A DNA stretch of 64,000 bases, from assembly GCA_910574865.1 (NCBI GenBank), contig CAJTDN010000001.1, positions 186,001 to 250,000 on the forward strand, given 5' to 3'. The number at the start of each line of letters is the position of its first letter. Positions within the stretch are counted from its first letter, which is position 1. This DNA is from Lachnospiraceae bacterium. GTDB lineage: Bacteria; Bacillota; Clostridia; Lachnospirales; Lachnospiraceae. Shown piece by piece: positions 1-17,823 of the stretch. Both the position numbers and the translations under genes were made by a program. The notes beneath the pieces are model-generated. The model had not been told where the DNA came from, did not search any database, and was given only the letters and a program-made list of their open reading frames with translations.

Positions 1-1391
1 CGTAAAAACATAATCATAGAGTTGTCATAGTATTTCCATCCCCGCTTTTGTAAGTCATTATAATTCACAATCCATTCATCTTCCATTCCCAACGTCTTAA
101 TATTGGAAGACAAAATTTTAGGCGTATTTCTAAATAGCTTTTCATTAATTTCTTTTGCATATTCATACTTAACTTCGTTACCAAAAAACAACCAATCATA
201 CTCATAATCAGAGAGAATAGAATTTATTCCTACTACGATAACGTCGTTATTGTCTATATATTTTTTTATCACGTCAACATACTGAACAGCAGATTTTCCC
301 GGCAAAATCGTGACTATCCTTTTCCCCTCAAATATCTCTTTCAACCCTTCCCTTGCCTTTGAATCGTCCACTTTTTTGTTTTGATAACTCGCATATACCG
401 CTTCCAACTTATCATAATCATACTGTACCCGCATATTTTTATCCAATGATTCGAAAATCATCCGCATGTCTTTACTCTTCGTGCGATGTGTTTTTGTGAG
501 ATATGCAACATTATTTACATGGCATCCATACATTCCCGCAATTGAATACGGGATGGAATATCCCCAAGAACCACTTTCCATAAACTGTGTCATATAAACA
601 TCTATTGTATCCATAATGGTATTTAAATCATAGTCCGTTCCATGTGAATCATTCAAATAATTTACCAGTAATTCCGTGCACGCATTTCCAGCGCCTCTAC
701 CCATTCCGCACAAACTGCTATCCACAATTAACAAGCGGCCCGACATTGCCAGCAAATTTTCCACAAATTGCATGGAAAGTGAAAACGACAATTGCAAATT
801 GTTGTGAGAATGGAAGCCCAATTTAATATTTTTATCTAAATTATTATTTATCAATGATGCTATACGCAGTAAATCGGATGGATACATTGCACCAAACGTA
901 TCCACTATCGACAAGCCCTCCGGCTTCACCTCGTTCACGGCTTGTATCAATTCTAATATTTCTTTATCTGAATATCCCAATGTATTTGCCGCCTGCAGAA
1001 AAACCCTATACCCCTTTTCGCGAATTTTTTTTACAATCTCAATCCCCTCTTTAGCTTTTCCCCTGGGGAACACTACGCGTATGGCATCTATCGTTTCACC
1101 GTCGCACATTGGTAATTGCCTACAATCGTATCTATCATAATCAATCATCGCCACATATGTGGCATATTCACTTTTAGGGCTTATCATATACTGTTTTATG
1201 TCACCTGGCACATGAAAAAAACTAGTTCCATGCTTGTGCGGCGCATCTTTCAACCATCCACATTCAATAATATCTACATTTGCATTCTGAAGATTCTTAA
1301 TGATTCCTCCTATCGTGTTTGCTCCAAATTCAGCGTTTACAACATATGCTCCATCTCTTAATGTACAATCCAACAATTCTATCCGTTTCAT
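1..1391 (-). CDS. HMGL/DRE-TIM aldolase-like protein, 3' end off window
   Basis: The reading frame opens at an ATG that overlaps the preceding gene's stop as ATGA and continues past the window edge, so the C-terminus is missing. The N-terminus carries the DCTLRDGAY signature of the HMGL-like (DRE-TIM) aldolase family. HSHNN near residues 194-198 gives the metal-binding histidines, and GMGRGAGN near 229-236 is the usual glycine-rich loop. These proteins resemble 4-hydroxy-2-oxovalerate aldolases. Relatives in polysaccharide clusters sit beside CMP-sugar synthetases, as here. After about residue 300 the protein continues into a Rossmann-like extension (KRIVTILPG), so it is longer than a minimal aldolase. 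I infer a role in making or modifying a sugar-acid precursor for the surface polysaccharide; the substrate cannot be read from sequence. Confidence 0.8.
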   Translation of the reverse strand, partial: MKRIELLDCTLRDGAYVVNAEFGANTIGGIIKNLQNANVDIIECGWLKDAPHKHGTSFFHVPGDIKQYMISPKSEYATYVAMIDYDRYDCRQLPMCDGETIDAIRVVFPRGKAKEGIEIVKKIREKGYRVFLQAANTLGYSDKEILELIQAVNEVKPEGLSIVDTFGAMYPSDLLRIASLINNNLDKNIKLGFHSHNNLQLSFSLSMQFVENLLAMSGRLLIVDSSLCGMGRGAGNACTELLVNYLNDSHGTDYDLNTIMDTIDVYMTQFMESGSWGYSIPYSIAGMYGCHVNNVAYLTKTHRTKSKDMRMIFESLDKNMRVQYDYDKLEAVYASYQNKKVDDSKAREGLKEIFEGKRIVTILPGKSAVQYVDVIKKYIDNNDVIVVGINSILSDYEYDWLFFGNEVKYEYAKEINEKLFRNTPKILSSNIKTLGMEDEWIVNYNDLQKRGWKYYDNSMIMFL

Positions 1392-2913: not shown

Positions 2914-4518
2914 TCACTTTCTAATTTTAAGTAACTCTTCTTGCTCTTTACAAATTTTCATATAATAAAGCAATCTCTGCTCTGTTGCTTCCAACATTCC
3001 TTGCAAAACCGAAATTTGCATTTGCTCTTCTGTTTTGAATCCGTCTACATGCAGCTCAACTTTTAAATTATCCAATTGCTTACTTTGGGAAAAATTCATT
3101 GCCATCTGTCTCACCCCCCTTTCTTTCGATAATACATAAATAGTTTCGTCCGTAAAATCATCATACATTTCATAGTCCCTGTTCGAATCAAGGTTCCTCT
3201 TTTTAATAACAATCGGAACAATATTTTCACTAAAACTTTTGTCCCTTGGACTATAAAACAAATAATCCTTATCTGAATTTATAAATACGATGTTTTGGGC
3301 GGGACATTTTTTAACAAAATACTCTGCCATCTCTTCCCTCGACATCCCCGCAAAAAGTTCCTCCGCCATCCGATCCACCAGTAAAATCGATTTTGCCCCA
3401 ATGTCTGATAACGAGTCTATTTTCTTCAATGCCACATCAAAACCATTGCCGATCGCATATCTGCATAAATTGTCAAGCACTTTCGTATTAACTCCAACAT
3501 AAGATATCGTCCTTGCTTTTCCTATTGTCAAAGAAAAAACCAATGCAAAATAAATCCTATGGATAGATTCAAAACTATCCTCGAAATCAAAATCAAACTC
3601 CATACTTTTTTCAAAAACACTTCTCAACGCATTAATCCCGGTTGACGAAATCGTTCCTACCATTTGTGGTATTGGAGTCATAATAAACGGTATAAATTCC
3701 GATAAAAACGATTCTCTTATCACTTGCACATCCGGATAAACGGCCTCGTATGCCATAAAATCTGCCGGATGCTTTTTTATTAAAATATTTTTATCCGCAA
3801 AAAAATAATCAAACACCAATCCATATAAAAGGGCTTGTCTTTCATAACTCATCATATTCAAATTTGCATAATGTTGTGATAAAAATATTACGCTGTTTTT
3901 CGGAACCGCTACCCTCTCGACTGTTCCGAATATTTTCATTATGTTTTGTATTGTCCTTACATCAAGGTTCTTCATTTGTTGTAACGTGTCAAAATGTATC
4001 ATTTTAGGGTTCGTATAATCCATTCTTTGCTCGTTTACATTACAAATTATACCTATGATATTAGGATTCGTGCCATCGTAAAGCCCCAATCCGTCTATGA
4101 CATCCACCTCTGCACGATTATTCCGATCTATATTTTTCACATGTTCTGCATCTGAGAGCAGGCCGCATGCCTCTTCGATATAATAAAAGGGTAATTGTTT
4201 TGCTGATAGATAAACGCCAAAATTATAATGTGACCCGCCTGAATAAATCACTGTTTTTTCATCAATAACAATTTCATTTTTTTCTAAAACAGAATCAAAA
4301 TAGTTTGTCACCGACTCTTGATATTTTTCCAGATTTTCAAACCCTTTCCTAATATCAATATAGATTACTTTGGAGAAAAATTTTTCTAATTCTCTTGTAT
4401 CAACATTTTCCTTAATTGATGTCGTAAAGAACAAAATTTTCTCACTTTCTTCTTGAATACAACTGTGCACGGTGCATACTAATGTTTGGTAAAAGCTTAT
4501 CGCATGATAAATAATCAA
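2914..4518 (-). CDS. polysialyltransferase-like glycosyltransferase (TTG start)
   Basis: I start this at a TTG (residues LIIYHAISFY, 534 residues) because AGGGGGAG sits four bases upstream and just beyond the preceding stop. An earlier ATG at 4680 would overlap the upstream gene by about 150 bases. The C-terminal half has KKHPAD (the HP motif of bacterial sialyltransferases) followed about 40 residues later by GTISSTG (the paired S/T motif), and YYIEEACG upstream recalls the acidic motif of that fold. This pattern fits the polysialyltransferase/GT52-like families using CMP-sugars. The neighbouring CMP-sugar synthetase supports that. After the glycosyltransferase region the protein ends with about 200 residues I cannot assign (SILLVDRMAEELFAG onward). 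Confidence 0.7.
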   Translation of the reverse strand: MIIYHAISFYQTLVCTVHSCIQEESEKILFFTTSIKENVDTRELEKFFSKVIYIDIRKGFENLEKYQESVTNYFDSVLEKNEIVIDEKTVIYSGGSHYNFGVYLSAKQLPFYYIEEACGLLSDAEHVKNIDRNNRAEVDVIDGLGLYDGTNPNIIGIICNVNEQRMDYTNPKMIHFDTLQQMKNLDVRTIQNIMKIFGTVERVAVPKNSVIFLSQHYANLNMMSYERQALLYGLVFDYFFADKNILIKKHPADFMAYEAVYPDVQVIRESFLSEFIPFIMTPIPQMVGTISSTGINALRSVFEKSMEFDFDFEDSFESIHRIYFALVFSLTIGKARTISYVGVNTKVLDNLCRYAIGNGFDVALKKIDSLSDIGAKSILLVDRMAEELFAGMSREEMAEYFVKKCPAQNIVFINSDKDYLFYSPRDKSFSENIVPIVIKKRNLDSNRDYEMYDDFTDETIYVLSKERGVRQMAMNFSQSKQLDNLKVELHVDGFKTEEQMQISVLQGMLEATEQRLLYYMKICKEQEELLKIRK

Positions 4519-4528
4519 TTTTCTCCCC

Positions 4529-6670
4529 CTATATTCCTTTATTAGACATGATGTTTCCAATCGTTTCCATTGACTGCGTTTCCTTATCAGAAAACATTGA
4601 CACGGAAAAAGCCATATTTGAAAAATATTTTTTAAAATATGCCAAATCCCTAAACACTTTCCTAAACGGCATATAAGCATCGTACCCTGAGATATTCATC
4701 ATAATCGGATATTCTCCAAATAGTCGTATATATTCTTTTGCGAAATCTAAAATTCCCTTATGTATTTCTTTTATCATTTGATAGTTTTCCACTTCCGGAA
4801 CATCAAATTTAAATTCATCATTTTCTCCTATTTCCTTAAAAGACGGCGTTGGAGATTGCGTAAAAATCTCAAACAAAGTCGTTCCTAAATGGTTGTTGCT
4901 TAAAACAAAGCTATCAAATTCCGCTCGATTATAACTACGGCTAAAAAGATAAGGTTGTATTGTGGCATTCTGGTCATACGCCGTCGTAATATTTTTATTC
5001 CACCCATTGCTTGCGGCTAAAATTCCTACTGCATAATCACAGATTTTCCAGTCCTTTGTTAACTTTTTTGACAACCCTTCTACATTACTTCCCGTCCACC
5101 CAACGTCGACAATGGCAATTCTTTTAGAGTCACCCACTACTTTTCTATAATAATCTCTCAATTTGCTTTCTTTTTTTGCATATATTTCAGCTATCTCATC
5201 ATAATGATCCAATAACATATCTTGTAATATCAAAGCATTGTTCTTTGACAAGAACTCATTTTGATTAACTCTATAGTTTTTTAAATAAACCAACAAACTT
5301 TCTAAACCAGAAGATTTTAATAGTGCCGAAATAGTAATTGAAATATTATTTGCAACCTTCCCGTCCAACAGACGATTGATAAAGGAATAGCGGTCTTGTG
5401 AAATAGTTGCCACGGCATTCGCCATTCTTGACCAATATGTATATTCGTAGTTTATGTCTGAATTGATTTTCTTGAACACCTTACTATAAACATCACCGTC
5501 CCTTGCCAAAAATAAAATCTTGTCTATTTGATTTGCCCTTGCGTAATTCAATATATAATTGCAAAAGCCTAAAACATAGATTCCTCCATACACATATCCA
5601 TACTCATAATAAATAGGATATCTTTTTAATCCACAGTGCAATCGCGCATTTACAATTCCGGCATATCCAGACCCTATCAGCTCCGACATTCCATCCGCTC
5701 GATATTGTTCTCCAACCGCATTAACCCCTTTATAATAATGTGTCTGCAATCCATATTTCTCAGCCATTACAATATCCGCACGCCAATTATCCCCAACGTG
5801 AATTACACTTTTTCCTCTCAATTGTTTAACGAAAATCTTGTATAACATACCTTGCTCATTTTTATTACAATTGTAATCACAAGAAACAATGACATCCTTA
5901 AAGCCCTTTAATCCGCACGCTTCCATTAATTCAGCCATCATGTTTTTAGGATAATACATGTCGGAAATCACATATATCTCTTTCCCGTAACTCTTTAATA
6001 TATCTAACACACGCTTCATATACGGATTTGCAAAACATAGTTTTTTTTCTAATTCAAATTCTTTTCTTATTCCTTCTTCCTTTTTTATTCCCGTAACCCG
6101 CTCAATTTCATAATAGACGTCATCAATGGTGACCTCCCTATTTCCCCTAATCACCATTGCCCTTTCTCTCGCTTTATTTTCACATTCTATTCGAATTTTG
6201 TGAAAATCACGCTGTTCAAACAACTTCTCCAACAAAAAGAACAAATCCGTTGGATTTGCAAATGGACGTAAAACCAACGTGTCAAACGCATCAAAAGAGA
6301 CGACATCGTATTTTAAATATCTCTTTACTATATGATGTACATACGTTCTTTTAAAAGCCTCTGACTCTGCCCCATCAACATACGCCAACAATTTGTCACG
6401 TTCCTTTTTTACTTTCCCGTTGTTTTTTACCAGTGTCTTATTCTTTATGGATGATGGTCGCGTTTCATCCAAACCGTCCCAGAATATAAGTGGTGTACTA
6501 TTCTTTCTTATACGATAATGCCAATTTAACTTCCACAAAATTTTCCAATGTTTTGCATGACTTTCATAATGTTCCTGAATGTTTTCCATTACGTACCGTT
6601 CATACTCATATTGCACATTTTCATTCTTTCTTACCAAGAAATTATAAATTTGACTCTTCAACTTTCCCAT
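4529..6670 (-). CDS. HAD-domain COG5610-type polysaccharide cluster protein
   Basis: The 713-residue protein has a HAD phosphatase-like domain at about residues 105-310: SFDAFDTLV is motif I, YVISDMYY motif II, and HVGDNWRAD motif IV. A second domain follows, marked by ILFLARDGDVYSK, YTYWSRMANA and IAIVDVGWTGSN. This two-domain layout is the COG5610 type found in surface polysaccharide clusters; its exact reaction is not established to my knowledge. The ATG at 6670 has GGAG nine bases upstream, better than the GTG five codons earlier. It is followed within 10 bases by the sialyltransferase-like gene and preceded by a paralogue, so the operon carries two full-length copies. Confidence 0.8.
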   Translation of the reverse strand: MGKLKSQIYNFLVRKNENVQYEYERYVMENIQEHYESHAKHWKILWKLNWHYRIRKNSTPLIFWDGLDETRPSSIKNKTLVKNNGKVKKERDKLLAYVDGAESEAFKRTYVHHIVKRYLKYDVVSFDAFDTLVLRPFANPTDLFFLLEKLFEQRDFHKIRIECENKARERAMVIRGNREVTIDDVYYEIERVTGIKKEEGIRKEFELEKKLCFANPYMKRVLDILKSYGKEIYVISDMYYPKNMMAELMEACGLKGFKDVIVSCDYNCNKNEQGMLYKIFVKQLRGKSVIHVGDNWRADIVMAEKYGLQTHYYKGVNAVGEQYRADGMSELIGSGYAGIVNARLHCGLKRYPIYYEYGYVYGGIYVLGFCNYILNYARANQIDKILFLARDGDVYSKVFKKINSDINYEYTYWSRMANAVATISQDRYSFINRLLDGKVANNISITISALLKSSGLESLLVYLKNYRVNQNEFLSKNNALILQDMLLDHYDEIAEIYAKKESKLRDYYRKVVGDSKRIAIVDVGWTGSNVEGLSKKLTKDWKICDYAVGILAASNGWNKNITTAYDQNATIQPYLFSRSYNRAEFDSFVLSNNHLGTTLFEIFTQSPTPSFKEIGENDEFKFDVPEVENYQMIKEIHKGILDFAKEYIRLFGEYPIMMNISGYDAYMPFRKVFRDLAYFKKYFSNMAFSVSMFSDKETQSMETIGNIMSNKGI

Positions 6671-6729
6671 TGATACCTGCTCCACTCGTAATTTCTTATT
6701 TTGTTTTCATCCTCTTTTTTGCTCTTCCT

Positions 6730-8853
6730 TCATCCCACTCCTACCTCGTCCATCATCCCTGTCATCACTTCCACAAACTCTCGATTCATCTCCCCCTCCA
6801 CGTTCACCATCGGCGCATACGCGTCCCGCCCGCTTATCCTCGCAAGTTCCGGCACCTTCTTCTGAATCCTTTTGTATTCCTTAACAAAATCCAGTATCCC
6901 CCTCTGGATTTCCTCGACCTTCTCCACGTCCGCCGTCGGCTTCTTGAACCTGCACTCGCATTCGCCATTTTTATCCAAATAAAACCCTTTCAAGCTCCCC
7001 GCCGGCGCGTCAAGCAACAATTCCCAGTACAAGTTATGGTTCTTTCCCGCATCATGCAGCTTCCAAATGTCACGGTTCTCCCGTTGCGAATAAAGATAAC
7101 TCACCAGCTTTCCGCTCTGCAAAAACGTCTCGCTGCTGTCTGGTTCCGCGTTGTGGCAGGTGTTCGTCCCGGCAATGATTCCAACGATTTCGCAATCCAT
7201 TTTCCAAACCTGGTTGACCATATAGTCCAAGGTAATCGCCCCGCTTCCGGCCCAGCCAATGTCCACCGCCACGCACTTTTTGTATCCTTGCAGAACTTTC
7301 CCATAGTACTTACCGCACGCGTCCACTTGTTCCCGGTAGCTTTCCAACACCTCGTCCCAGCATTCCAACAAAAATGCCTTTATGGTTTCCACGTTCTTGT
7401 TGGTCAGGCAGGCATCCATCTTCACCCTCGTCCGGGTCTGGCACCTTCGAAGCAACGCCCCCAACTCCATTGATTCAAATATTTGACGGATGGTGTATTG
7501 CTGGTCTACCTTGTGGTACAAAAAGCGCCGGAAATAATCATATTTGAAACGTCCTGCCGTCAACTTGGCCGCCGCCAGCCGTGACCAATAAACGTACTCC
7601 GTCTCTATCCGCTTTACGGCATCCTCATACAGAAGCCGATACGCTTTTTGCAGAACATCGCCGTCCCTCGCCAGAAACAAGATTTTCTCCACGCCATGCA
7701 TCTGCACATACTCATAAATGAACTGGCAGTACCCCGTCACGAACAGCCCGCCGTATATATAGCCGTATTCATATTCCCGGCTAAATCGGTGCAATCCATT
7801 GTGAATATGCGCGTTGACCAATCCCCGGTAAATACTTCCCGTGATGGCCGACATGTCCTCCGGCCTATAAGGCATCCCGACCGCGTTGACATTCACGTAA
7901 TGGAACGGCGCGAACCCATGCTTTCCCGCCTGCTCCACGTCGGAAATATAATTGTCCCCCACATGCGCGTAAGTTCTGGATTCCGACTTTGCACGTCCCC
8001 CATCCGCACCTTTCGTCCTCACATGCCTTACATCCACGCCCTCCACATTCACGTTCTCCGGCTTTTCTCGTCCCGCGTTTTTTTCCTCCATCCTCCTGAC
8101 ATATTCATACAAATCCCCTTTGCTTTTCGAACGCCGCAATCCGCATGACACATAATATGCGTCAAACTCGGGATATCCGCATGCCCGCAAAATCCGCTTT
8201 ATTCTCTCCATGTTCAAGTACATGTCCGAGGTAATGACAAGACGTTTCCCTTGGCATCGCAATTCCTCCACGACCGCTTTCATGAACGGATTGGCAAAGC
8301 AAAATGTTTCCTCCAATTGCACTTCCCGCTCCGCCACACTCCCGGCAAGCCCCGTTTCCAGTGACAATAAACGGTAAATTTCTTCCAGTGTCACCTCGTA
8401 ATGCTTTTCCCTTTTAAACTTTTTCTCCCTCGCCTTCCACTCCGCTTCCTCCCGAATCCGCTTGAAATCCGGGTAACCAAGTTCATGCCCCAGCACGTGG
8501 AACAAATCCGTCGGGCAAGAGAACGGGCGAAGCACCAACGTGTCAAACACGTCGAACGAAACCACGTCGTACATGCCTAAATCCGCCGCAAATTTCTTCG
8601 GCGTCGTCTTGCAGGAAATGGACGACTCGCTCTCTTTCACGTACAACAACTTCTCCTCATAATACGGAAATTTTTCTGGTTGCGCCAGTCGCCTGTCGTG
8701 AAAAATGTAATAGGCAACGTTCCAATATAACAAGCTCACCCAGGCCGAAAGGCGATCACCGCCTGATACATGGTTTCGCTTTCTTCGATAACGATCTTGT
8801 ATCCCCGGAACCTTGTTCACCAACGAACCATATACCTTGTCCGTCAGATTCAT
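6730..8853 (-). CDS. HAD-domain COG5610-type protein, second copy
   Basis: This is a 707-residue paralogue of the next gene in the operon, with the same order: SFDVFDTLV (HAD motif I), LVITSDMYLN (motif II), YAHVGDNYISD (motif IV), then ILFLARDGDVLQK, YVYWSRLAAA and CVAVDIGWAGSGA. The start is the ATG with GGAGG six bases upstream, giving MNLTDKVYGS; the longer frame to 8922 has no such site. Between the motif III region and motif IV it carries an extra low-complexity stretch of about 35 residues (rich in K, E, G, R; around NVEGVDVRHVRTKG) that the paralogue lacks. The base composition is more GC-rich than its paralogue, so the two copies may have different histories. Confidence 0.8.
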   Translation of the reverse strand: MNLTDKVYGSLVNKVPGIQDRYRRKRNHVSGGDRLSAWVSLLYWNVAYYIFHDRRLAQPEKFPYYEEKLLYVKESESSISCKTTPKKFAADLGMYDVVSFDVFDTLVLRPFSCPTDLFHVLGHELGYPDFKRIREEAEWKAREKKFKREKHYEVTLEEIYRLLSLETGLAGSVAEREVQLEETFCFANPFMKAVVEELRCQGKRLVITSDMYLNMERIKRILRACGYPEFDAYYVSCGLRRSKSKGDLYEYVRRMEEKNAGREKPENVNVEGVDVRHVRTKGADGGRAKSESRTYAHVGDNYISDVEQAGKHGFAPFHYVNVNAVGMPYRPEDMSAITGSIYRGLVNAHIHNGLHRFSREYEYGYIYGGLFVTGYCQFIYEYVQMHGVEKILFLARDGDVLQKAYRLLYEDAVKRIETEYVYWSRLAAAKLTAGRFKYDYFRRFLYHKVDQQYTIRQIFESMELGALLRRCQTRTRVKMDACLTNKNVETIKAFLLECWDEVLESYREQVDACGKYYGKVLQGYKKCVAVDIGWAGSGAITLDYMVNQVWKMDCEIVGIIAGTNTCHNAEPDSSETFLQSGKLVSYLYSQRENRDIWKLHDAGKNHNLYWELLLDAPAGSLKGFYLDKNGECECRFKKPTADVEKVEEIQRGILDFVKEYKRIQKKVPELARISGRDAYAPMVNVEGEMNREFVEVMTGMMDEVGVG

Positions 8854-8964
8854 AGTACCTCCATCCCCTTTCTTCCACCTTAATCCGTCATAAACCAACG
8901 TCCTCCTGACATCTATGGCCACGCGATAGATGCCGTCGCCGTTGGCGAGATTCTTTTGAGCTTA

Positions 8965-11040
8965 TTAGACGGCTTCGTTCATCTTCTCATATGCATCGCA
9001 CACCTCTCCCGGCTCGCCAATCGCCCTTAAAATCCCCTTTTCTATCCAAACGACCTTCGTGCAATTGTTACGGATGACGGAGGTGGAATGCGACACGATC
9101 AGCACGGTGGATCCGCCGTGTATCATTTCCTGGATTCGCTTCTCGCTCTTCTGGCGGAAGAACATGTCGCCAACGCTTAGCACCTCGTCCAATATGAGGA
9201 TTTCCGGCGTGTCCCGCACGGTCGCGATGGCGAATCCAAGCCTGGACACCATGCCGGAAGAATAGTTTCTCACCTTTTCTTCCATAAATCCTTCCAGTTC
9301 CGCAAACTTCACGATGTCGTCGTATTTCTCGTCAATGTACTCCTTCGTGTAGCCGATGATGGAACCATTCAGGTACACGTTTTCCCTTCCTGTCAGTTCA
9401 AAGTCGAAACCCGTTCCCAACGTCAGCAGTTGAATCTTGTTCCGATTCACGATGATTTTCCCCGCCGTCGGGATGAGCGCGCCGGAAATGATTTTCAAGA
9501 TGGTGCTCTTTCCTGAACCGTTCGTCCCGATAATGCCGATTACCTCCCCCTTGCGAACCGTGAAACTGACATCGTCAAGTGCCTTGAACCGCTCCACCTT
9601 GCGCTGACCCTTGACCGTGCGAATCAACATTTCCTTTATGCTGGTCGCTTCGTCGCTCTCGTGCTTGAACTCCATGGTCACATTCTCAACCATGATTTCT
9701 ATTTCCGCCTCCTCAGCCAAGGTCTGACCCGCGTCCATCCCTTGCTGATTCTCTTTCAAGTCAAAGGTTTGAAACTCCTTGTGTCCTACCCGCGACTTGT
9801 GCCGCCCTTGACGTGGTTCCCCTCCACGGCGATTTCCTTGCCCCAGGATCTCCCCTTGGCTCGGACGACTCCCCTTCGCCCGCCGCCTCTCCCTTCGTAA
9901 CCCGCGTCGCCGTTCGCGCCTCTTCTTTTCTCTCCACAATAGGAACACCGTGGAGATAGCAAGCAGTACAACCGTGACCATCATCACGATTAACAAGATT
10001 TTCTCATAACCCATGTCGCAAAGACCGCTGTTCGCCAAATTCGAATCACCGTCCACGTTTCCCTTTTGGGAATTTCCATCCCCTACGTTTCCTTCCGAAT
10101 TTCCACTACCATTTCCTGAATTTCCATCATCTTCATTACTACCATTCCCACCCACCGCGTCTTGTGGATTTTCCGGCTTTGTCACGCTCAACGCGTACCT
10201 GGCCCGCTCGCCAGAAACATTCTGCGTCATGACGTGGACAACGTTCTCCCCATCCTCCAAGGGAATCCGATACGTGCCGCCCGAAGCCTCGACCGTCTGC
10301 CAGTTCCAAACGTTTTGTAGCGTACCGACCTCCACCGTGATTTGAGTCTCTTCACCATCCGGATTGACTTCCAATTCAATTTGCTTATCTTGCGCCGCCA
10401 CTTCCATGGCATAGAACGTCACCTCCGTAGAAAAACCATCCACCGGCGTACCGTTCACCCGCATTTCCTCCAACGCGCATCCCCCGGCCAGTGGGATTTC
10501 CACATTTACCACAGCCTGCAAATTTGACACGCCCCCGCCATCCGCGGCAACCACTGACGCATTCCCGATACGGATTTGCGTACTGCCCGACACGCGTGGA
10601 ACAAACTGCAGCATCTGCATGTAGCTGTTGCCGTTGATTCCCGACGCGGACACACGCACTACGCCCGGCTCCACCAATTCCCCGCCGGAAACATATTCCA
10701 GCACAGACGCATCATAATAGACATTCCATTCCACCGATTCAAGCGACGTATCGGCACCGGCATACACGCCAATAGGCGAAATCGTACCCAGATTCCAACG
10801 GTACCCCTCCGAGCCGAAATACACCCGCTCCCCGACAGCTTGCACCGAAAAACCCACCGTAAGTACCATAAGCGCCACGATTGCCAAGGACGCCGCCACA
10901 TAAAACGCCTTGCGAAACGAGGCGTAACCCGCGCATGTCCGCCAAAAATCCATCCGGCATTTCTCTATTTTCTTTTCTACCTTGTAACTTCTTGTTCTCG
11001 TCATAACCTCTTTATTTTGTCCCCCGCCAGTCCCCGTCAT
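8965..11040 (-). CDS. ABC polysaccharide-export ATPase fused to extracellular cohesin/cadherin-like module
   Basis: Using the ATG that overlaps the permease stop (ATGA), the protein has 691 residues. Residues about 45-70 form a membrane segment (FYVAASLAIVALMVLTVGFS). About 75-185 resemble a cohesin-like beta sandwich, and about 188-290 a cadherin-like beta-sandwich domain (ALEEMRVNG start). A G/N/S/D-rich linker follows (295-340), then a second membrane segment (347-369) and a strongly basic stretch (KKRRERRRGLRRERRR). The C-terminal 250 residues are a Wzt/TagH-type ATPase: GTNGSGKST Walker A, NYSSGMVSRLGFA signature, ILILDEVLSVGD Walker B, IVSHS switch. Positive-inside topology puts the sandwiches outside and the ATPase inside. 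Polysaccharide ABC ATPases normally lack such an N-terminal ectodomain; B. subtilis TagH has an extra domain at the opposite end. A start at 11004 is also possible. Confidence 0.85.
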   Translation of the reverse strand: MTGTGGGQNKEVMTRTRSYKVEKKIEKCRMDFWRTCAGYASFRKAFYVAASLAIVALMVLTVGFSVQAVGERVYFGSEGYRWNLGTISPIGVYAGADTSLESVEWNVYYDASVLEYVSGGELVEPGVVRVSASGINGNSYMQMLQFVPRVSGSTQIRIGNASVVAADGGGVSNLQAVVNVEIPLAGGCALEEMRVNGTPVDGFSTEVTFYAMEVAAQDKQIELEVNPDGEETQITVEVGTLQNVWNWQTVEASGGTYRIPLEDGENVVHVMTQNVSGERARYALSVTKPENPQDAVGGNGSNEDDGNSGNGSGNSEGNVGDGNSQKGNVDGDSNLANSGLCDMGYEKILLIVMMVTVVLLAISTVFLLWREKKRRERRRGLRRERRRAKGSRPSQGEILGQGNRRGGEPRQGRHKSRVGHKEFQTFDLKENQQGMDAGQTLAEEAEIEIMVENVTMEFKHESDEATSIKEMLIRTVKGQRKVERFKALDDVSFTVRKGEVIGIIGTNGSGKSTILKIISGALIPTAGKIIVNRNKIQLLTLGTGFDFELTGRENVYLNGSIIGYTKEYIDEKYDDIVKFAELEGFMEEKVRNYSSGMVSRLGFAIATVRDTPEILILDEVLSVGDMFFRQKSEKRIQEMIHGGSTVLIVSHSTSVIRNNCTKVVWIEKGILRAIGEPGEVCDAYEKMNEAV

Positions 11041-11819
11041 AACTTCTTCATGATGTCGTTCCGATGTCTGTTGAACACGACGAACCCGACGAGGTACATC
11101 ACGATTCCCCATGCCGCGATGTAAATCATTTGCGTCACGTCAGGCAACCGCCCTTTCATCACGATGATCCGCATGCAGTCGATATAGTTGAATACCGGAT
11201 TTATTTGTATTACCATCCTGACGATTCCTTTCAGCTGGTCAACCGGATAAAACAAGGCCGACATGTACATCCATAACGTCAACAAGACAGAGTAAAGGTG
11301 CTTCACGTCCCCAAAAAACACGTACGCGGTGGCCAATACATGGGCAATTCCCAGCGAGAACAAAAGCAAAAACAACACGATGACGGGTGCCAATGCCATC
11401 GTCCAGCACGGGGGTACACGAAATACCACCAACATGATCACGTAAGCTATCAGAGAGTACAAGAAGTTCACCAGCGACGTATACACCCTTGATAAAATGA
11501 AGATGTCCATCGGAAATTTCACCTTGATAAGCAGCATCTTGTTGTCCACCAGCGAGGTCATCGCCGCATTGGTCGCCCCGGTAAACAACTGCCAGACAAC
11601 CGAACCCGTCAAATAATAAATCGGGAAGTTCTCTATGGAACGGTGGAACAATTGCGTAAATATCAAGGAAATCACACACATGGACAGCAACGGGTTTAAC
11701 ACGCTCCAAACGATGCCCAAATAGGAACGGGAATATTTGCGCTTGATTTCGCGTGACGTCAGTTCCTTTATCACGAACCAATATTGTTTCCGTTGTTCCT
11801 TTTGTTCCTGTTTCGTCAT
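11037..11819 (-). CDS. ABC-2 type polysaccharide export permease
   Basis: About 260 residues with six predicted membrane segments and the N-terminal ELTSREIKRKYSRSYLG motif of TagG/Wzm-family ABC-2 permeases. It should form the membrane channel that exports the lipid-linked polymer, powered by the ATPase encoded immediately downstream; the two genes overlap by four bases (ATGA). I chose the ATG at 11819 because GGAGG lies five bases upstream; an ATG four codons earlier (11831) is possible. The C-terminus ends in the short cytoplasmic tail RHRNDIMKKL. Confidence 0.9.
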   Translation of the reverse strand: MTKQEQKEQRKQYWFVIKELTSREIKRKYSRSYLGIVWSVLNPLLSMCVISLIFTQLFHRSIENFPIYYLTGSVVWQLFTGATNAAMTSLVDNKMLLIKVKFPMDIFILSRVYTSLVNFLYSLIAYVIMLVVFRVPPCWTMALAPVIVLFLLLFSLGIAHVLATAYVFFGDVKHLYSVLLTLWMYMSALFYPVDQLKGIVRMVIQINPVFNYIDCMRIIVMKGRLPDVTQMIYIAAWGIVMYLVGFVVFNRHRNDIMKKL

Positions 11820-11865
11820 CTTCCCCTCCATACTTCTCTTCCACCGGCGTTTTCGCCTTCCCGCC

Positions 11866-13641
11866 TCAACGCCTCTTCCACCCTGCCTGCCTCACGTACA
11901 GCAAATATTTGTAGGCCGCGTACATCCTCCAGTGATATCCGTTACGTCGCCCCAGCCTTGCCACGCTCCCTTCGTACCACGCGCTTTCCTTCACGAGTCC
12001 TTTTCGAATGCCCAGCATCACCAGCGCCTTGTTCCAGACGTGGTTTTTCACCAGTTCCTCCTCCGTCAGCTTCGCCGCCGTCCTATATAGGGCGTTTTCC
12101 AACACGTCGTCGGAAAATTTCAGGTCGCCGAACGTTTCCGCCTCCACCCTCGTCGGGCTTCCCATGAACGCCTTGAAAAGGCGGCGGGTCACGTCGCGAA
12201 ACTCGTGCACGTCCAGACCAAGGAATGCCTCTCGCAATTCGCTTTTGTCTCCCATTCGCGCGCCGTTTCGATCCTTGGCACACGCCTTGATGTTGTTCGC
12301 CAGCTTTTCCCCGTACACCGTGACGCACAATTCCATCCACTTTGCGAACCTGCACCGCTCCTCCAAACATTCAGCTAGAATCGGGACGTATGTTTGTCCC
12401 GGCGCTTGCCCTTGTCTCGTCCCGTACCCTTGTTCCGTCCCAAGCCCCCGCCTTGTCTCGCGCCCCTCGCCGTCACGACTCCTTTGATATCCCACCGTCA
12501 TCCCATGTGGGGCGCTGAACACGCTCTCAAAAAGGCAGTTGCTGAAATGCACCTTGGCTCTCAAGCCATCCTTCGGTCCAAAATAATAGGCCGCATAGTC
12601 GTCACGTTCCACTCCCTTCGGCAATTCGTAAAGCCCGAAATAGTATCCCTTCAGCGGTTCCTTCCTGCCAAGGTGCATAAGCACCTCTCCCAACGTCTTT
12701 TGCATCGATCCCGTCCAGCCACTGTCCACCAACGCGTAATCGCTTCCGTCGGTTGACGCCGCCTTCGCCGGCCCAGCCTCTTCCACGGCAGGCCGTTCGT
12801 CTTGCTCCCCCCCGCCCCTTTCTCCTACGTGTGGCGCGTCTCCCGCCGTCTCGGCATTCGCCCCGTCAAGCAATCCTTCCTGCCGCAAGTATCCCGCCAG
12901 TTCGGGCATCCGACGCCTCGAATTTCTCTCCACGCATGCCAAAAAATATTCGCATTCGCCCAGCAGCCGCCTCACTTCCTTCAATCTTGCGTAGGGTATC
13001 ACCTCGTCCCCCGCATAGGGCAACCGCAACATCCGCAAAACTTTCCGCTTGTCCTTGCCTCCAATGCCGGAACGGTTCAATATTTTTTCCATGGTCACGT
13101 CTATCCCGCCCCGGCAGATGAAGTCAAGCGCGCCTTCCATGTCCAGATGAAAGGCGGGAATCCGCAGGGAATAACGGGAGCAGTACAAATACCTGCATTC
13201 CACGGGAAGTCCGAGCGTCCGGCAAAGGATTTGTGCCAGACGATACATCAGGTAGCCGTCCCTCGCCACGAAATAGAGCCGCCCCCTTCCTTCCTCCATC
13301 GCCCGCCTAAGCGCCCAGACGACGAACCCGCATAAGGACGGCGCCAGCACGCAGATGGCGTCCTGCGTCACCGTGTCGAAAGAGGACAGCCACCTATCCA
13401 ACGCCTTGCCATTTTGGCCAATCGAGCCCCTCATCGCGCGGCCATTTTGCACGGCCGCCCCTTCCGCCGCCCGACCATTCTGCACGGCCGCTCCTCCCAA
13501 TGTCCATCCGTCGTAATTGGCCATTTCCGCCAACGTCCCATACATAAGAGGACTCCTTTTCAAGCCTGCCAGATATGTCGCCCGCTGCTTTTGCTGGCTT
13601 TTCCCCGCTTGATTTCTTTCTGGTTTCCTTATTCCCGACAT
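11866..13641 (-). CDS. stand-alone COG5610 C-terminal-domain protein without HAD domain
   Basis: The 591-residue protein lacks the HAD motifs but keeps the second-domain landmarks of the two COG5610 paralogues: RLYFVARDGYLMYRLAQ, YLYCSRYSLR and YALVDSGWTGSMQ. It therefore looks like that domain alone, with a new N-terminus. Residues about 45-80 contain an 11-residue repeat (AAVQNGRA twice, then IGQNGKA). Two other low-complexity inserts appear: one acidic and glycine-rich (GERGGGEQDERPAVEEAG) just before the DSGWTGS motif, and one G/T/R/Q-rich (GLGTEQGYGTRQGQAPG). It sits between the GT2 and permease genes. Function is unknown; I infer a polysaccharide-assembly role by context. Confidence 0.7.
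   Translation of the reverse strand: MSGIRKPERNQAGKSQQKQRATYLAGLKRSPLMYGTLAEMANYDGWTLGGAAVQNGRAAEGAAVQNGRAMRGSIGQNGKALDRWLSSFDTVTQDAICVLAPSLCGFVVWALRRAMEEGRGRLYFVARDGYLMYRLAQILCRTLGLPVECRYLYCSRYSLRIPAFHLDMEGALDFICRGGIDVTMEKILNRSGIGGKDKRKVLRMLRLPYAGDEVIPYARLKEVRRLLGECEYFLACVERNSRRRMPELAGYLRQEGLLDGANAETAGDAPHVGERGGGEQDERPAVEEAGPAKAASTDGSDYALVDSGWTGSMQKTLGEVLMHLGRKEPLKGYYFGLYELPKGVERDDYAAYYFGPKDGLRAKVHFSNCLFESVFSAPHGMTVGYQRSRDGEGRETRRGLGTEQGYGTRQGQAPGQTYVPILAECLEERCRFAKWMELCVTVYGEKLANNIKACAKDRNGARMGDKSELREAFLGLDVHEFRDVTRRLFKAFMGSPTRVEAETFGDLKFSDDVLENALYRTAAKLTEEELVKNHVWNKALVMLGIRKGLVKESAWYEGSVARLGRRNGYHWRMYAAYKYLLYVRQAGWKRR
13405..13506 (-). repeat. 33-bp in-frame tandem repeat within coding sequence
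   Basis: Two close 33-bp units and one diverged unit encode AAVQNGRA-type peptides near the N-terminus of the stand-alone COG5610-like protein. The unit is a multiple of three, so copy number could change without breaking the frame. Confidence 0.75.
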
Positions 13642-13678: not shown

Positions 13679-14743
13679 TCACGACATTTTTCCCCTCGTC
13701 AGCGGCAATCCCAAGCGTCCGGCCGCAATCTTCCCTCGCGTCCCGTTTCCACGCGCCTCATTTGCATGCGCCTTGTTCCCGCGCCCGACCCCTCTCGCGT
13801 ATTGCAGGATTGCCGTCGGCATGACTCCCGCGACCAGGGGGCGCAGCACGTAATGAAACGTGTCCGGCCGCAAAATCCCCAGCCTTCGAAACCCCTCTAA
13901 CCGTACCGCGGCTTCCCTCCCCCGTGTCTTCGCCGTCCGCTTCCGATAAGACGTTTCGCCCTCCCGGTAGGCAAGCAGGCTTTCTTGTATGTTATAGCCC
14001 CGCGCGCCTTGGCCATGCAGGCGCATGAACAGCTCGTAGTCCTCGCAACGCCTCGTCAGTTCCGTCGTCTGGTAACCGCCGCATTCCACGAGGAACCGCC
14101 TCCTGAACATGACCGACGGGTGGATGTAAGGCGAATACCGCAGAAAATCTTCCGCCCGGGGACGCTTGGGTACGTAATCCGTCCCCCACGTCCCGTCCGC
14201 ATCAAACAGCTCGGCGTTGGAACCCACCCATTCGTACTGCGGATGCCGTTCTAAAAACGCGTATTCCTTCTCCAGTCGCTCTTCCTTGGAAATGTCGTCG
14301 TCATCCATCCTGGCTATATATTTTCCCACCGCCTGACAAAGGCAACGGTTGAGCGAGTATCCGAGTCCCATGTTTTGCTCGTTGCGTAAAAGTATGATGC
14401 GTTTATCCATTTTCGCCAGTCGGCGGATCATGGCCGAACGGGAAGCATCCGACCCGTCATCGCAAAGAATCATTTCCCAATCCCGCAAGGTCTGCCGCCG
14501 GATGGAGTCCACCGCCTGGCGAAGCCTCTCTTCCGAGACCGGATTGTAGACCCCCATGATGACACTGACCTTGACCGACAGTTCCTTCATTGGTGTCACC
14601 ATGCCTTCTCCCGAAACGGCCGCATCATTCATCAGCAACCCCGCGTCATTTCCCGCGATGGCCGACCTCTTCATCGGCGATGCCACGATTCGCATTTCTT
14701 CCATTGGCAACTTGTCGTTTCGTGCATCTTTTTTTTGCGGCAT
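13679..14743 (-). CDS. family 2 glycosyltransferase
   Basis: A 354-residue GT-A fold enzyme: VSVIMGVYNP opens the domain, ILCDDGSDA is the nucleotide-binding aspartate motif, ARMDDDDIS is the DxD metal site, and CEDYELFMRL is the ED catalytic region. It likely adds a sugar to the lipid-linked repeat unit at the inner membrane face. The start has a perfect AGGAGG seven bases upstream of ATG, although it lies 73 bases inside the upstream GT4 gene. The frame is open further upstream (to 15223) but only as an antisense-free shadow of the GT4 gene. The last 40 residues are basic and low in complexity (GKAHANEARGNGTRGK). Confidence 0.88.
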   Translation of the reverse strand: MPQKKDARNDKLPMEEMRIVASPMKRSAIAGNDAGLLMNDAAVSGEGMVTPMKELSVKVSVIMGVYNPVSEERLRQAVDSIRRQTLRDWEMILCDDGSDASRSAMIRRLAKMDKRIILLRNEQNMGLGYSLNRCLCQAVGKYIARMDDDDISKEERLEKEYAFLERHPQYEWVGSNAELFDADGTWGTDYVPKRPRAEDFLRYSPYIHPSVMFRRRFLVECGGYQTTELTRRCEDYELFMRLHGQGARGYNIQESLLAYREGETSYRKRTAKTRGREAAVRLEGFRRLGILRPDTFHYVLRPLVAGVMPTAILQYARGVGRGNKAHANEARGNGTRGKIAAGRLGLPLTRGKMS

Positions 14744-15960
14744 TTTGCTTCCTCCTCTTGCCCTGACGGCCGCATGGCGGCCCGCGCCTCCTCGACCGCC
14801 GCGTCCAGTTCCCAGTACACTTTCCGCATCACCGCCTCTGTCCGTTCCCTGGCGAAGGGCAGCACGGACTTGCGGCAGTTCCCCGCCATTTTTTCCCGTT
14901 GCGCGGTGGTCAGGCACATTATTTTTTGCAAGCCGGCCGCCCAATTTTTCTCGTCCCTGGCGTTGCAAAAATACCCGTTGATTCCATTGTGCAAATATTC
15001 CCGCGTGCCACGATTTCGCGAGGCCAGCAGCGGAATCCCCATCGCCAGCGCCTCGAGTCCCGCCATGCCAAGGCCCTCGCGCACGGTCGGAAACACCGAA
15101 AAATCCGCGCAGCCGATGACATTTTCCACGTCCCGCCGATACCCGTACAGTTTCACGTTGTCCTCGAGCCTCCGTATGTAAATCTCCCGCTGGATTTTTT
15201 CCTCGTAAAATCCGTCCCCGCAAATGCCATAGTGGACACGTGAAATGTCCTTCCCCGATTCCCGCAAATAAGAAAGCGCCTTCAAAATTACCATCTGGTT
15301 TTTATTTTCATTCAGTTCTCCGACCGACACGAAGAACACGTCACCCTCGGGTATCCCCAGTTCCTTGCGCCGCGCCCTGCGCTCCTCCTCATGCATCGGG
15401 GTGAAGCGATTCAAATCCACCCCCACGCCGGGAATCTCGAACACCCGCTTCGGGTTCTTCAGCGGAAGGTCGAGGGCGTTTCTAAAATCCTCCCGGTTAA
15501 TCGTCACGAGAACGTCCGTGTACCTGGCCATCACCCATTCCGCAAGATAATAGGCCGTGTTGTTCACGAGCGGGGCACCCTTGTAAAAGTGGAACCCATG
15601 CGCGGTGTAAACGACCTTCAACCCTCGTCCCGCGAACTTCCTGCCCATCATGCGCCCCAGCATGCCTCCCACCGGGGTGTGGCAATGGATGGCCAGGATG
15701 TCGTTTTCCAAAATAATGCGGCACAGTTGCTTGAAAGCGGCCACGTTGTAACGAACCATGTACGGCGACCGGGCGACGTCTATATGGTGGACGCGCACGC
15801 CCAGCGCAATGATTTCCCGCTCGTCGTACTGGTAGTGCGGCTCCCGCAGGTTCGCGGCGTAATGCACGGTATAGCCCATCTCCTGCAGGATTTTCACGTT
15901 TCCCCGCTCGAACTTGTCCAGGAACCCCCCGACCGTCGCCAGTATCAATATGTTTTTCAT
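14671..15960 (-). CDS. family 4 glycosyltransferase, EpsD-like
   Basis: The 429-residue protein begins MKNILILATVGGFLDKFERGN, the typical start of EpsD-like GT4 enzymes. HCHTPVGGMLGRM and YTAHGFHFYKGAP belong to the N-terminal domain. PGVGVDLNRF, VSVGELNENKNQ and SVFPTVREGLGMAGLEAL carry the GT-B nucleotide-sugar binding residues (E-x7-E). It is the first gene of the polysaccharide operon, 145 bases downstream of the left inverted recombination site. AAGGAAG nine bases before the ATG supports the start. The final 24 residues overlap the GT2 gene in another frame. Confidence 0.9.
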   Translation of the reverse strand: MKNILILATVGGFLDKFERGNVKILQEMGYTVHYAANLREPHYQYDEREIIALGVRVHHIDVARSPYMVRYNVAAFKQLCRIILENDILAIHCHTPVGGMLGRMMGRKFAGRGLKVVYTAHGFHFYKGAPLVNNTAYYLAEWVMARYTDVLVTINREDFRNALDLPLKNPKRVFEIPGVGVDLNRFTPMHEEERRARRKELGIPEGDVFFVSVGELNENKNQMVILKALSYLRESGKDISRVHYGICGDGFYEEKIQREIYIRRLEDNVKLYGYRRDVENVIGCADFSVFPTVREGLGMAGLEALAMGIPLLASRNRGTREYLHNGINGYFCNARDEKNWAAGLQKIMCLTTAQREKMAGNCRKSVLPFARERTEAVMRKVYWELDAAVEEARAAMRPSGQEEEAKCRKKKMHETTSCQWKKCESWHRR

Positions 15961-16104
15961 CTGTGCATGCTTCCTTGTAAAAACAGATTTTATGTATTAT
16001 CATTTCCCATATGTTAGCCATACGCCAATATTCCATTCCCAAATTACACGACCGTGCGATTGTCAATCCACGGCCGGAAAATTTATAATGGCTAATGTAT
16101 ATAT

Positions 16105-16129
16105 TTCGCAGAATTGGCCATTCTGCGAA
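16105..16129. repeat. left inverted recombination site of invertible segment
   Basis: A 25-bp dyad: arms TTCGCAGAAT and its complement flank a 5-bp asymmetric spacer TGGCC. The arms extend by two more bases on each side (12-bp arms at 16103-16131). The same 25 bp occurs at 17582-17606 in inverted orientation with no mismatch. This is the layout of a tyrosine-recombinase core site. Confidence 0.88.
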
Positions 16130-16169
16130 ATCATCCGCGAATCCCGCATGAGTCCTCATAAATTTGCCT

Positions 16170-17294
16170 CTATCTTTCAGATTGACCAACAAATTGACCA
16201 TAAATGGATGAGAGCTTGTTCATCTGCTGGCGCTTCAAGGCGATTGACGGGTGAACATAACGGTTCAGCGTAATCTGCACGTTGGCGTGTCCCAATATTT
16301 CGCTGAGGCTTTTGGCATCCATTCCGCTTTCGATACAATTTGTCGCAAATGTGTGGCGAAGCGCGTGAAAACTTTTATTTCCTATTTCCGCCTGCCGCAA
16401 ATACGATTTCAACTTGTTCTGGTAGGTTCTCGGCTCCATGGGCGCGTCTCTCTTGATAAGGTATTCGCCCTCCATGGGAAAAGATCGCAATAGCTGCACC
16501 ACGTCTTCGGACAGCGGGATTTCACGCATGGAGTAAATACTCTTGGGTTTGTTTTCATAAAGAATCGTTTTCGTTCCACACCCATCGACGGCGATTCTCT
16601 GCACCGTGGAACTAACACGAAGCGTTTCCGTGTGCAAATCAATGTCCGAGCACTTCAAGGCACAAATTTCCCCCAACCTGAGGCCGGTCGACAGGCATAA
16701 CAAAATTCCCATTTTAAAAACATCCATTTCCGAGCACAAGACGTGAAAGAGCCGTGATTGTTCCATCTGGCTAAATGTCGCCACGTTTTGTTTCCGTTCG
16801 CATCCCAGTTCCATTTGAAACGTGTCCGTATGCACATGGTATTTTTTGGCGGCATATTTCATGATCTGGTTAAATACCGCATAAACCGTCCTTTTGAGCG
16901 CCACGGATTCCTGCATGTCAAGCAATGTCAATTTTTTGTCTATCGTGCCAACATCCACACTTGTCAATGGAACTTTTGCCAATTCCGATAAATATTTTTC
17001 GTAAATTTTTTTATATTTCACGTAAGTCGGGTACTTTCGATTCTTCTCGATATATTGAAGCCATTCTTCGGCCATGACGCCGAACGTCTTTCGTCCCGCC
17101 CTCCCGCTTTCCGCGTCAATAGCAAAGGACTCCTTTTTCGCGGTTTCCTTGGCAACCGCCAGTTTTTCCTTGACCTTCGCGTATGTCTTTGCATACACGG
17201 AACGCTGTTTTCTTCCCGTGGGAGTCGACAACATGTAACGCCCCTCCCACCTTCCGTCCGTCCGCTTGTGAATGTTTTCTCCTCTTCTTGCCAT
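16170..17294 (-). CDS. tyrosine recombinase within the invertible segment
   Basis: A 374-residue integrase-family recombinase. The N-terminus has an AP2-like arm-binding region (RTDGRWEGRYMLSTPTGRKQ), followed by a core-binding domain and the catalytic domain. The catalytic residues can be followed: R in STGLRLGEICALKC, HALRHTFATN (H-x-x-R), LGHANVQITLNRY (H and the Y nucleophile). The ATG at 17294 has AAAGGAG with six-base spacing; the longer frame starts at 17327. It ends 40 bp from the left inverted site and is the only gene between the two sites, so it is the obvious candidate to invert its own segment. It otherwise resembles Tn916/ICE integrases, but no other transfer genes lie beside it. 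Confidence 0.92.
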   Translation of the reverse strand: MARRGENIHKRTDGRWEGRYMLSTPTGRKQRSVYAKTYAKVKEKLAVAKETAKKESFAIDAESGRAGRKTFGVMAEEWLQYIEKNRKYPTYVKYKKIYEKYLSELAKVPLTSVDVGTIDKKLTLLDMQESVALKRTVYAVFNQIMKYAAKKYHVHTDTFQMELGCERKQNVATFSQMEQSRLFHVLCSEMDVFKMGILLCLSTGLRLGEICALKCSDIDLHTETLRVSSTVQRIAVDGCGTKTILYENKPKSIYSMREIPLSEDVVQLLRSFPMEGEYLIKRDAPMEPRTYQNKLKSYLRQAEIGNKSFHALRHTFATNCIESGMDAKSLSEILGHANVQITLNRYVHPSIALKRQQMNKLSSIYGQFVGQSER

Positions 17295-17376
17295 AACGTT
17301 CTCCTTTTCTACCATCTTTTTGACCACTTATGGCGTGGGAATAAAAAATGACATTTCGTCAAGCCCCTCATAAAAC

Positions 17377-17395
17377 CATGCCGGACAACGGCATG
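17377..17395. promoter_or_regulatory. 7-bp dyad with 5-bp spacer upstream of recombinase
   Basis: CATGCCG and its complement flank GACAA, 80 bp upstream of the recombinase start. It could be an operator or accessory recombinase site; its arms are unrelated to the 25-bp sites. Confidence 0.4.
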
Positions 17396-17483
17396 AATTT
17401 CATTTTCCTCCATCGAACAACGAGTTGCACTTGCGAAAAACCGCGATGAACCGCAAGAAACGACAGAAATTTCATGTGTTTTC

Positions 17484-17512
17484 TTGACAAAGAAGAGCCG
17501 ACGTGATAGAAT
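17484..17512 (+). promoter_or_regulatory. outward-facing sigma-70-type promoter in invertible segment
   Basis: TTGACA (17484-17489), a 17-bp spacer and TAGAAT (17507-17512) form a near-consensus promoter on the plus strand. It reads through the right inverted site 70 bp downstream. The leader contains a short GGGAC/GTCCC stem followed by a T run (17537-17566), which could act as a weak attenuator. Nothing is encoded on the plus strand before the terminator at 17756. Confidence 0.8.
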
Positions 17513-17581
17513 TCTCTCGTATTAAGGAAAGACTGAGGGACAAAAAGACAGAAAGTCCCCTTTTTTATGAAAATTCCCACA

Positions 17582-17606
17582 TTCGCAGAATGGCCAATTC
17601 TGCGAA
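17582..17606. repeat. right inverted recombination site
   Basis: Exact reverse complement of 16105-16129: 10-bp arms TTCGCAGAAT around spacer GGCCA. The inverted spacer orientation predicts inversion, not excision, by recombination between the two sites. Confidence 0.88.
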
Positions 17607-17755: not shown

Positions 17756-17789
17756 AAAGGTGAGTTTCCCCGAAAGAAAACTCACCTTT
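17756..17789. terminator. bidirectional intrinsic terminator
   Basis: Perfect 12-bp arms (AAAGGTGAGTTT) around a 10-base loop, with T tracts on both strands. It ends the antiporter gene and would also stop transcripts leaving the invertible segment in its present orientation. Confidence 0.88.
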
Positions 17790-17823
17790 TCATTTTATAC
17801 GGACGTCACCACAAACCCACGGA

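Follow-up and report, generated by a model that had tools for sequence, protein, structure and literature searches.

The window, which is the whole stretch of 64,000 nucleotides that was analysed, contains a segment of approximately 1.5 kb that is bounded by two recombination sites at positions 16105-16129 (left) and 17582-17606 (right), both listed on the + strand. The left site reads TTCGCAGAAT-TGGCC-ATTCTGCGAA, and the right site is its exact inverted copy, so that the two sites are 100% complementary over 25 bp. Each site is itself a dyad of 10 + 5 + 10 bp, and the arms of the left site can be extended to 12 bp. When the window is searched for this dyad pattern with up to three mismatches, the pattern is detected at these two sites only, and it is detected in none of 100 shuffled sequences. 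The segment encloses one gene, which encodes a tyrosine recombinase (16170-17327, - strand), and an outward promoter of the sigma70 type, TTGACA-17-TAGAAT (17484-17512, + strand), which is divergent from this gene. The promoter is nearly identical to the consensus, and none of 200 shuffled sequences scores as high. A short hairpin in the leader, GGGAC-N13-GTCCC followed by a T-tract (17537-17566, + strand; -6.9 kcal/mol), lies between the promoter and the right site and may act as an attenuator. The right site, with a fold of -14.7 kcal/mol, is immediately followed by T7 and thus resembles a terminator for + strand transcripts. The region to the right of the segment is free of genes until a convergent Ca/Na antiporter gene, which is preceded by a second hairpin with 12-bp arms (17756-17796, hairpin at 17756-17789, listed without strand). 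A first-pass annotation of this DNA had described two exact inverted 25-bp copies, each a dyad with 10-bp arms and a 5-bp centre, a single gene between them for a tyrosine recombinase with R, HxxR, H and Y residues, a TTGACA-17-TAGAAT promoter pointing out of the right site, and a gene-free stretch beyond it that is closed by a terminator. All of these features are present, and the terminator-like structure of the right site itself, ahead of the hairpin at 17756-17789, is an addition to them.

The recombinase has 385 residues as listed, but the ATG at 17294 (374 residues), rather than the GTG at 17327, is probably its start codon, because AAAGGAG is seen upstream of the former by eye and the related proteins have a start of the MARRGEN type. 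The Pfam search assigns this protein to PF00589 (93.8 bits against a cut-off of 27.1) and to no other family, and R217, K262, H321-x-x-R324, H347 and Y357 are invariant in an alignment of 15 members, which places the protein in the tyrosine recombinase/phage integrase superfamily. The catalytic domain of the serine resolvases and invertases, the Hin family proper, is not detected in the Pfam search. The nearest relatives with a solved structure in a profile search are the "Int protein" chains of 6en0, 6emy and 6emz, which we take to be Tn1549 Int. A good promoter for the recombinase gene itself is not found when the promoter scan is compared with shuffled sequences. The + strand sequence TTGTCA-18-TATAAT at 16060-16089, which points from the left flank into the segment, was considered as a recombinase promoter of the flipped state and was rejected, because its -10 box is not kept, by eye, in G002, the only other genome in which the locus was found.

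An operon encoded on the - strand starts beyond the left site. The first-pass annotation had counted ten genes starting at 145 bp from this site; the operon does lie there, but it comprises 11 or more genes in the same direction as far as the edge of the window, and 144 bp separate the left site from its first ATG at 15960. The genes encode, in order and all on the - strand, a GT4-type glycosyltransferase (14671-15960), a GT2-type glycosyltransferase (13679-14635, with the start chosen by us inside a longer open reading frame that reaches 15223), a protein (11866-13641) that is 74% identical in L037 of G002 and approximately 35% identical in L027 and L028, an ABC-2 type permease (11037-11831) with a putative role in polysaccharide export, a TagH/Wzt-like ABC ATPase with an N-terminal cadherin-like part (8965-11112), a large protein (6730-8922) that is 35% identical over 625 positions to the product of the next gene, this next product, which has a HAD-like part (4529-6685), a protein encoded at 2914-4680, a hexapeptide-repeat transferase (2086-2904), a cytidylyltransferase (1388-2074) for which PseF is the best model at 80.7 bits, below the cut-off of that model, and a protein whose gene extends past the edge of the window (1-1391) and which, named by eye, is presumably HMGL-aldolase-like. 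The assignments to glycosyltransferases, permease, ATPase and hexapeptide-repeat transferase come from family searches. The genes at 6730-8922 and 2914-4680 give no Pfam or NCBIfam match, and the gene at 11866-13641 gives no family match either. The operon is probably one for an ABC-exported polysaccharide. Control of the LoaP/UpxY type depends on a dedicated paralogue of NusG that is encoded near the operon it regulates. LoaP-type antitermination control was considered for this operon and was rejected, because the single NusG-domain match in the assembly, which is 96% complete, lies on another contig.

The operon leader (15961-16104, - strand), which extends from the left site to the first gene, contains no sigma70-like match on the - strand in our scans, in agreement with the earlier claim that the operon has no convincing promoter as oriented. 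The recombinase gene, however, is read in the same direction as the operon in the assembled orientation, and the OFF state may therefore be leaky. No terminator is found on the operon strand between the recombinase gene and the operon in the stricter scan, and a looser scan gives a weak match (score 16) at 54 nt past the left site. It is conceivable, but in our estimate unlikely, that the operon is transcribed as assembled, either because transcripts of the recombinase gene continue into it or from an unrecognised promoter within 15961-16104, and that inversion only changes the level of its expression. The shared direction of recombinase gene and operon, which are separated by no more than a weak terminator, would permit this, and the 65 nt directly upstream of the ATG have the same sequence, by eye, in G002. 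These points are outweighed by the lack of a sigma70-like match in the leader and of a good promoter for the recombinase gene in the scans, and by the conservation of the near-consensus outward promoter in G002, the closest relative.

We consider it very probable that the locus is instead a self-contained, phase-variable promoter switch, or inverton. The segment is an inverton in the sense of identical inverted sites that flank a promoter able to face a target gene, with the candidate promoter recognised by its consensus. In the proposed mechanism, the recombinase encoded in the segment would bind to the dyad arms of both 25-bp sites and exchange strands across the identical spacer, thereby inverting the segment with its own gene and its outward promoter. 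In the assembled orientation, the promoter would read into a dead end with terminators, among them the crossover site with its T-tract, and the operon would be OFF or at most leaky. The copy of the crossover stem on the operon side is followed by ATATATAC, whereas that on the right side is followed by T7, and therefore the promoter should read into the operon after inversion. Upon inversion, it would thus pass through the other site, whose flank has no T-tract, and turn the operon ON. The weak terminator match past the left site argues somewhat against free passage into the operon in this state. In G002, the sites, the promoter (in L009), the stem of the leader hairpin (in L009) and the reading frame of the recombinase are kept, and the right flank is diverged.

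To place the locus in a wider context, 41 recombinase loci were examined. Nineteen of them are all matches at E<=1e-60 in 98 genomes including that of the window (12 of the 98 genomes matched), 2 are further recombinases of the genome of the window, 14 are new loci at E<=1e-65 from 299 genomes of the family, again including that of the window (18 of the 299 matched), and 6 were taken from nine named loci, which are from Lachnospiraceae or Roseburia with one from Clostridia. L025 (the same record as L037), L027 (a near copy of L026 in another MAG, with the same site coordinates) and L033 (27% identity) were left out before counting. The orthologues L037, L044, L028 and L051 were dropped from the deduplicated set of 27 loci and from the comparison of spacers between loci, and were kept in the counts of 31 and 25 loci. 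A matched inverted site pair, identical at 20 or more of 25 positions, flanks the recombinase gene in 31 of the 41 loci, and the other ten score 16-18. The layout of a recombinase gene and a mostly divergent promoter between matched inverted sites is thus common to 31 of the 41 loci, which, together with the presence of every named part in the window, supports the earlier reading of the locus as an invertible promoter switch in the OFF state before a polysaccharide operon. The consensus of the sites is TTCGYAGAnT-N5-AnTCTRCGAA. Among the ten loci without sites, three (L048, L050 and L074) lie at contig ends and one (L045) has an in-frame stop in the recombinase gene, and six (L039, L053, L080, L030, L031 and L032) have neither a contig end nor a stop to account for it. 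In the recombinase tree, the group of the window has 17 rows, with sites in 16 and L045 as the exception (support 93/91, not starred). The presence of sites is only moderately clustered on this tree, with 7 changes against a mean of 9.8 upon shuffling, and 13 of 500 shuffles are as low.

In 21 of the 31 loci, the best outward promoter between the recombinase start and the site has p<=0.05, as judged from 200 shuffles per locus, and the best inward promoter has such a value in one locus, L034. When the loci are scanned with the consensus of the sigma28-type box, an outward box is found in 7 of the 31 loci, and its core CCGATA is found inward in none of them. The seven loci include the three switches L034, L036 and L042, each of which combines a tyrosine-recombinase inverton and a sigma28-type box with a csrA-like gene and, after it, a flagellin gene (L034:6647-9111, L036:11232-14268 and L042:1924-4763). 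The target side was assigned from runs of outward genes, with at least two such genes on one flank and no more than one on the opposite flank, in 25 of the 31 loci. The loci left unassigned include L036, L041 and L081. The assemblies are biased towards the OFF orientation, in that the promoter points away from the target in 20 of the 25 loci and towards it in five (L028, L051, L070, L071 and L078). Strong terminators (score of 18 or more) are present at 15 of 25 dead-end exits versus 2 of 25 target exits (P 2e-4, with the cut-off set after the scores were seen and with orthologues among the 25 loci). When any terminator match is counted, the numbers are 18 of 25 versus 9 of 25 (P 0.02), and the window is among those with a match, a weak one, at the target exit. 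The crossover site and its flanking T-tract are themselves the terminator match in the window and in L034, L036, L041, L042, L046, L081 and L026, and in L028, where the operon is on the swapped side, such a terminator lies on the other side. Against the dead-end rule, site-based terminators on the target side are seen in L076 and weakly in L046, and that of L034 is strong and overlaps the site; that of L073 cannot be assigned. A gene of the rRNA adenine dimethylase family (PF00398, 245 residues) is located outward of the inverton site of L081 at a distance of 449 bp (L081:11240-11977, + strand).

Two pairs of loci have the same operon on opposite sides. L041 and L051, whose recombinases are 79% identical, have the same 8-kb operon on the recombinase-3' side and on the promoter side, respectively, and L026 and L028 (69% identical) have approximately 3.3 kb of operon on opposite sides. 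The unswapped comparisons give no match for either pair. The dead-end flanks do not align, and it is therefore formally possible that these elements were inserted independently in opposite orientations. The case for inversion between species in these two pairs appears strong but not complete. L038 and L071 were considered as a third clean pair, with a homologous TnpB-like operon on opposite sides, and were rejected because their recombinases are only 42% identical and belong to different groups of the tree.

A further explanation, which we regard as improbable, is that the switch of the window is decayed or locked, having formerly inverted and now being fixed in the lineage with the operon silent or driven otherwise. 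The related genomes were searched for the other orientation, and the window locus has the same orientation in its own genome (G000) and in G002, which are the sole two holders found. This result, the promoter facing away in 20 of the 25 orientable loci, and the in-frame stops in the recombinase genes of the relatives L045, L048, L068 and L069 are what a locked switch would leave. L068 and L069 have site pairs, so that a site pair is no proof of a working switch. In contrast, the recombinase frame of the window is open and encodes all catalytic residues, and the sites, the promoter and the frame are kept in both species despite the divergence of the right flank.

The spacers argue further for inversion. 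Within loci, the two spacers differ at 0 of 155 positions, as opposed to 40 mismatches among 620 arm positions (P 1.5e-4). Each site pair had been chosen as the best match of 25-mers at its locus, a choice that favours identity, and the dyad of L040 had been read in a shifted register. Between the 27 deduplicated loci, only 1 of 351 pairs has a spacer in common, and the spacers differ at 69% of positions, versus 26% for the arms. The spacers of orthologues change in concert, with TTAGTTA at both sites of L026 and TTGGTTA at both sites of L028. This pattern fits a recombination that requires identity of the spacers, such that each switch would have a private address, and it points indirectly to past recombination at the sites. 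The spacer pattern and the two oppositely oriented orthologous elements thus point to real inversion. The outer halves of the arms have more mismatches than the inner halves (26 versus 14 in 31 loci; 24 versus 13 in the 27 deduplicated loci, P 0.05; both counts include L040, in which the register of the dyad is shifted), with more outer mismatches in 11 loci and more inner ones in 3. This excess is not predicted by plain inversion and might hint at past mobility of a unit bounded by the inner arms.

It is very improbable that the segment is a small mobile element, consisting of an integrase and its ends, because the Int chains as nearest solved relatives, the better match of the inner arm halves and the absence of both switch and operon beside the orthologous antiporter gene in G001 are countered by a segment with no cargo seen except the promoter and with its usual place before an outward operon, by spacers that are the same at both ends of each locus though different between loci, and by relatives in the same genome that are only approximately 36-50% identical to the recombinase of the window and therefore indicate no recent copying from its element. 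In G001, other genes are found beside the antiporter gene (L096; G001:C22), and an empty site is not found in the stretch examined there, where other genes lie. L098 of G005 gives matches to the antiporter gene only. Among viral contigs, the site pattern is found in one, L082, as a single site, and the promoter pattern in none. Searches of plasmid and phage proteins give only matches below 60% identity among the best 10 of 489 and the best 10 of 1659 matches, respectively, and a tRNA scan gives none.

The genome of the window contains at least four such switches, namely that of the window before the polysaccharide operon, L034 and L036 before csrA-like and flagellin genes, and L035 before FHA and PP2C genes. 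Four is a minimum, because sites were sought at only part of the recombinase matches in this genome (25 rows, from which five loci were taken). L007 and L008 of the same genome have no flanking site pair. The four switches have four different spacers and are all assembled with the promoter away from the target, that is, in the OFF orientation; L036 is so assigned by the side of its csrA-flagellin genes and is ambiguous by the rule of gene runs. Four independent switches would allow 16 surface states from approximately 6 kb of DNA.

At least 6 of the 31 switches have a TnpB-like gene (Cas12f1-like_TNB) as the first gene past the site (L029:7392-8711+, L038:10907-12322+, L049:11076-12428+, L068:9033-10406+, L071:11123-12562+ and L072:8182-9540-). 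L039 and L048, in which sites are not found, have such a gene as well. By eye, the three acidic RuvC positions seem to be replaced in all six proteins, with these positions placed where we assume the motifs to lie, and the zinc-finger cysteines are retained. The six proteins therefore appear to be nuclease-dead and TldR-like. Pfam matches are found for 3 of 10 scanned genes downstream of the TnpB-like genes (radical SAM; IspD-type cytidylyltransferase; cytidylyltransferase-like with GFO/IDH/MocA), and for this reason a role of these operons in surface glycans is only a guess.

Taken together, these loci may represent a kit of portable, autonomous switches that extends throughout the Lachnospiraceae, a family frequently found in the gut; to this generalisation we give even chances. 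Each switch would have its own tyrosine recombinase, a sigma70-like or sigma28-like promoter suited to the target, a private spacer of 5-7 bp that drifts in concert at both ends and so prevents cross-talk within one genome, and a crossover hairpin that is re-used as dead-end terminator. The targets would be surface glycans, flagellin with CsrA, FHA/PP2C, and operons headed by putatively nuclease-dead TnpB-like proteins. If this pattern holds, the spacer tells which sites can recombine, the dead-end terminator tells which orientation is OFF, and the -10 box hints at the sigma factor of the target.

Among known systems, Tn1549 Int (6emy, 6emz and 6en0) has the closest solved catalytic domain by profile search. 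It is the integrase of a conjugative transposon, and Tn916/Tn1549-type elements have linked excisionase, transfer or cargo genes within their ends. The locus differs from them in that no transfer genes are seen between its sites, where the recombinase gene is the only gene found, and in that its neighbours are the operon and the antiporter gene. No description of self-contained tyrosine-recombinase switches in Lachnospiraceae is present among the literature matches listed, which do not cover the 2019 Science survey of invertible promoters, so that absence from print is not claimed. The gene for RecV of C. difficile lies off its invertible segments. In the excerpts of PMC5903667, RecV/Cdi exemplifies the inversion of switches ahead of surface genes by a tyrosine recombinase from the clostridia, as is proposed here, but one recombinase serves several switches. 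Mpi of Bacteroides fragilis, according to excerpts of the same source, shares with the window locus the switching of surface polysaccharides by inversion, but it is one serine recombinase that acts in trans on at least 13 regions (PMC5903667). Inverton group 139 of PhaseFinderDC, 32 of whose 33 members with tyrosine invertase group 35 are from Clostridia, likewise links a tyrosine-type invertase to invertons in gut Clostridia, but the two examples given with coordinates, compared here by their description, have approximately 205-230 bp between the repeats and the invertase nearby (excerpts of PMC11892184). A self-contained switch of approximately 1.1-1.6 kb with an internal recombinase gene may escape surveys that are tuned to short promoter invertons. 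The csrA-tldR-fliC loci with hin of Oscillibacter/Flavonifractor, in which a FliA-dependent promoter region inverts before flagellin-linked csrA, are parallel to L034 and L036, but they have a hin-type invertase and inversions of approximately 120 bp, whereas the recombinase here is of the tyrosine type and is encoded inside the segment, and no tldR was noted in L034 and L036, which were viewed without a profile search (excerpts of PMC13418256). The putatively invertible fimbrial segment of Providencia stuartii is a larger segment that encloses a recombinase ORF, as does the segment of the window, but it has 844 bp and 14-bp imperfect repeats, controls fimbriae and belongs to a proteobacterium (excerpts of PMC5903667).

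As read from the DNA, the architecture of the locus is that of the Salmonella Hin switch, executed by a tyrosine recombinase. Hin is a serine recombinase whose gene lies with an outward promoter on the invertible segment, and the orientation of this promoter sets the ON and OFF states. The recombinase gene of the window likewise lies within the segment with an outward promoter whose orientation would set these states, and, unlike Hin, the locus has a recombinase of the tyrosine type and different sites, and its target is a polysaccharide operon. The combination of promoter and recombinase gene on one segment, which the first-pass annotation had emphasised, is therefore not new in itself, since the flagellar switch of Salmonella Hin, named in excerpts of both PMC5903667 and PMC13418256, is its classic example (PMC5903667).
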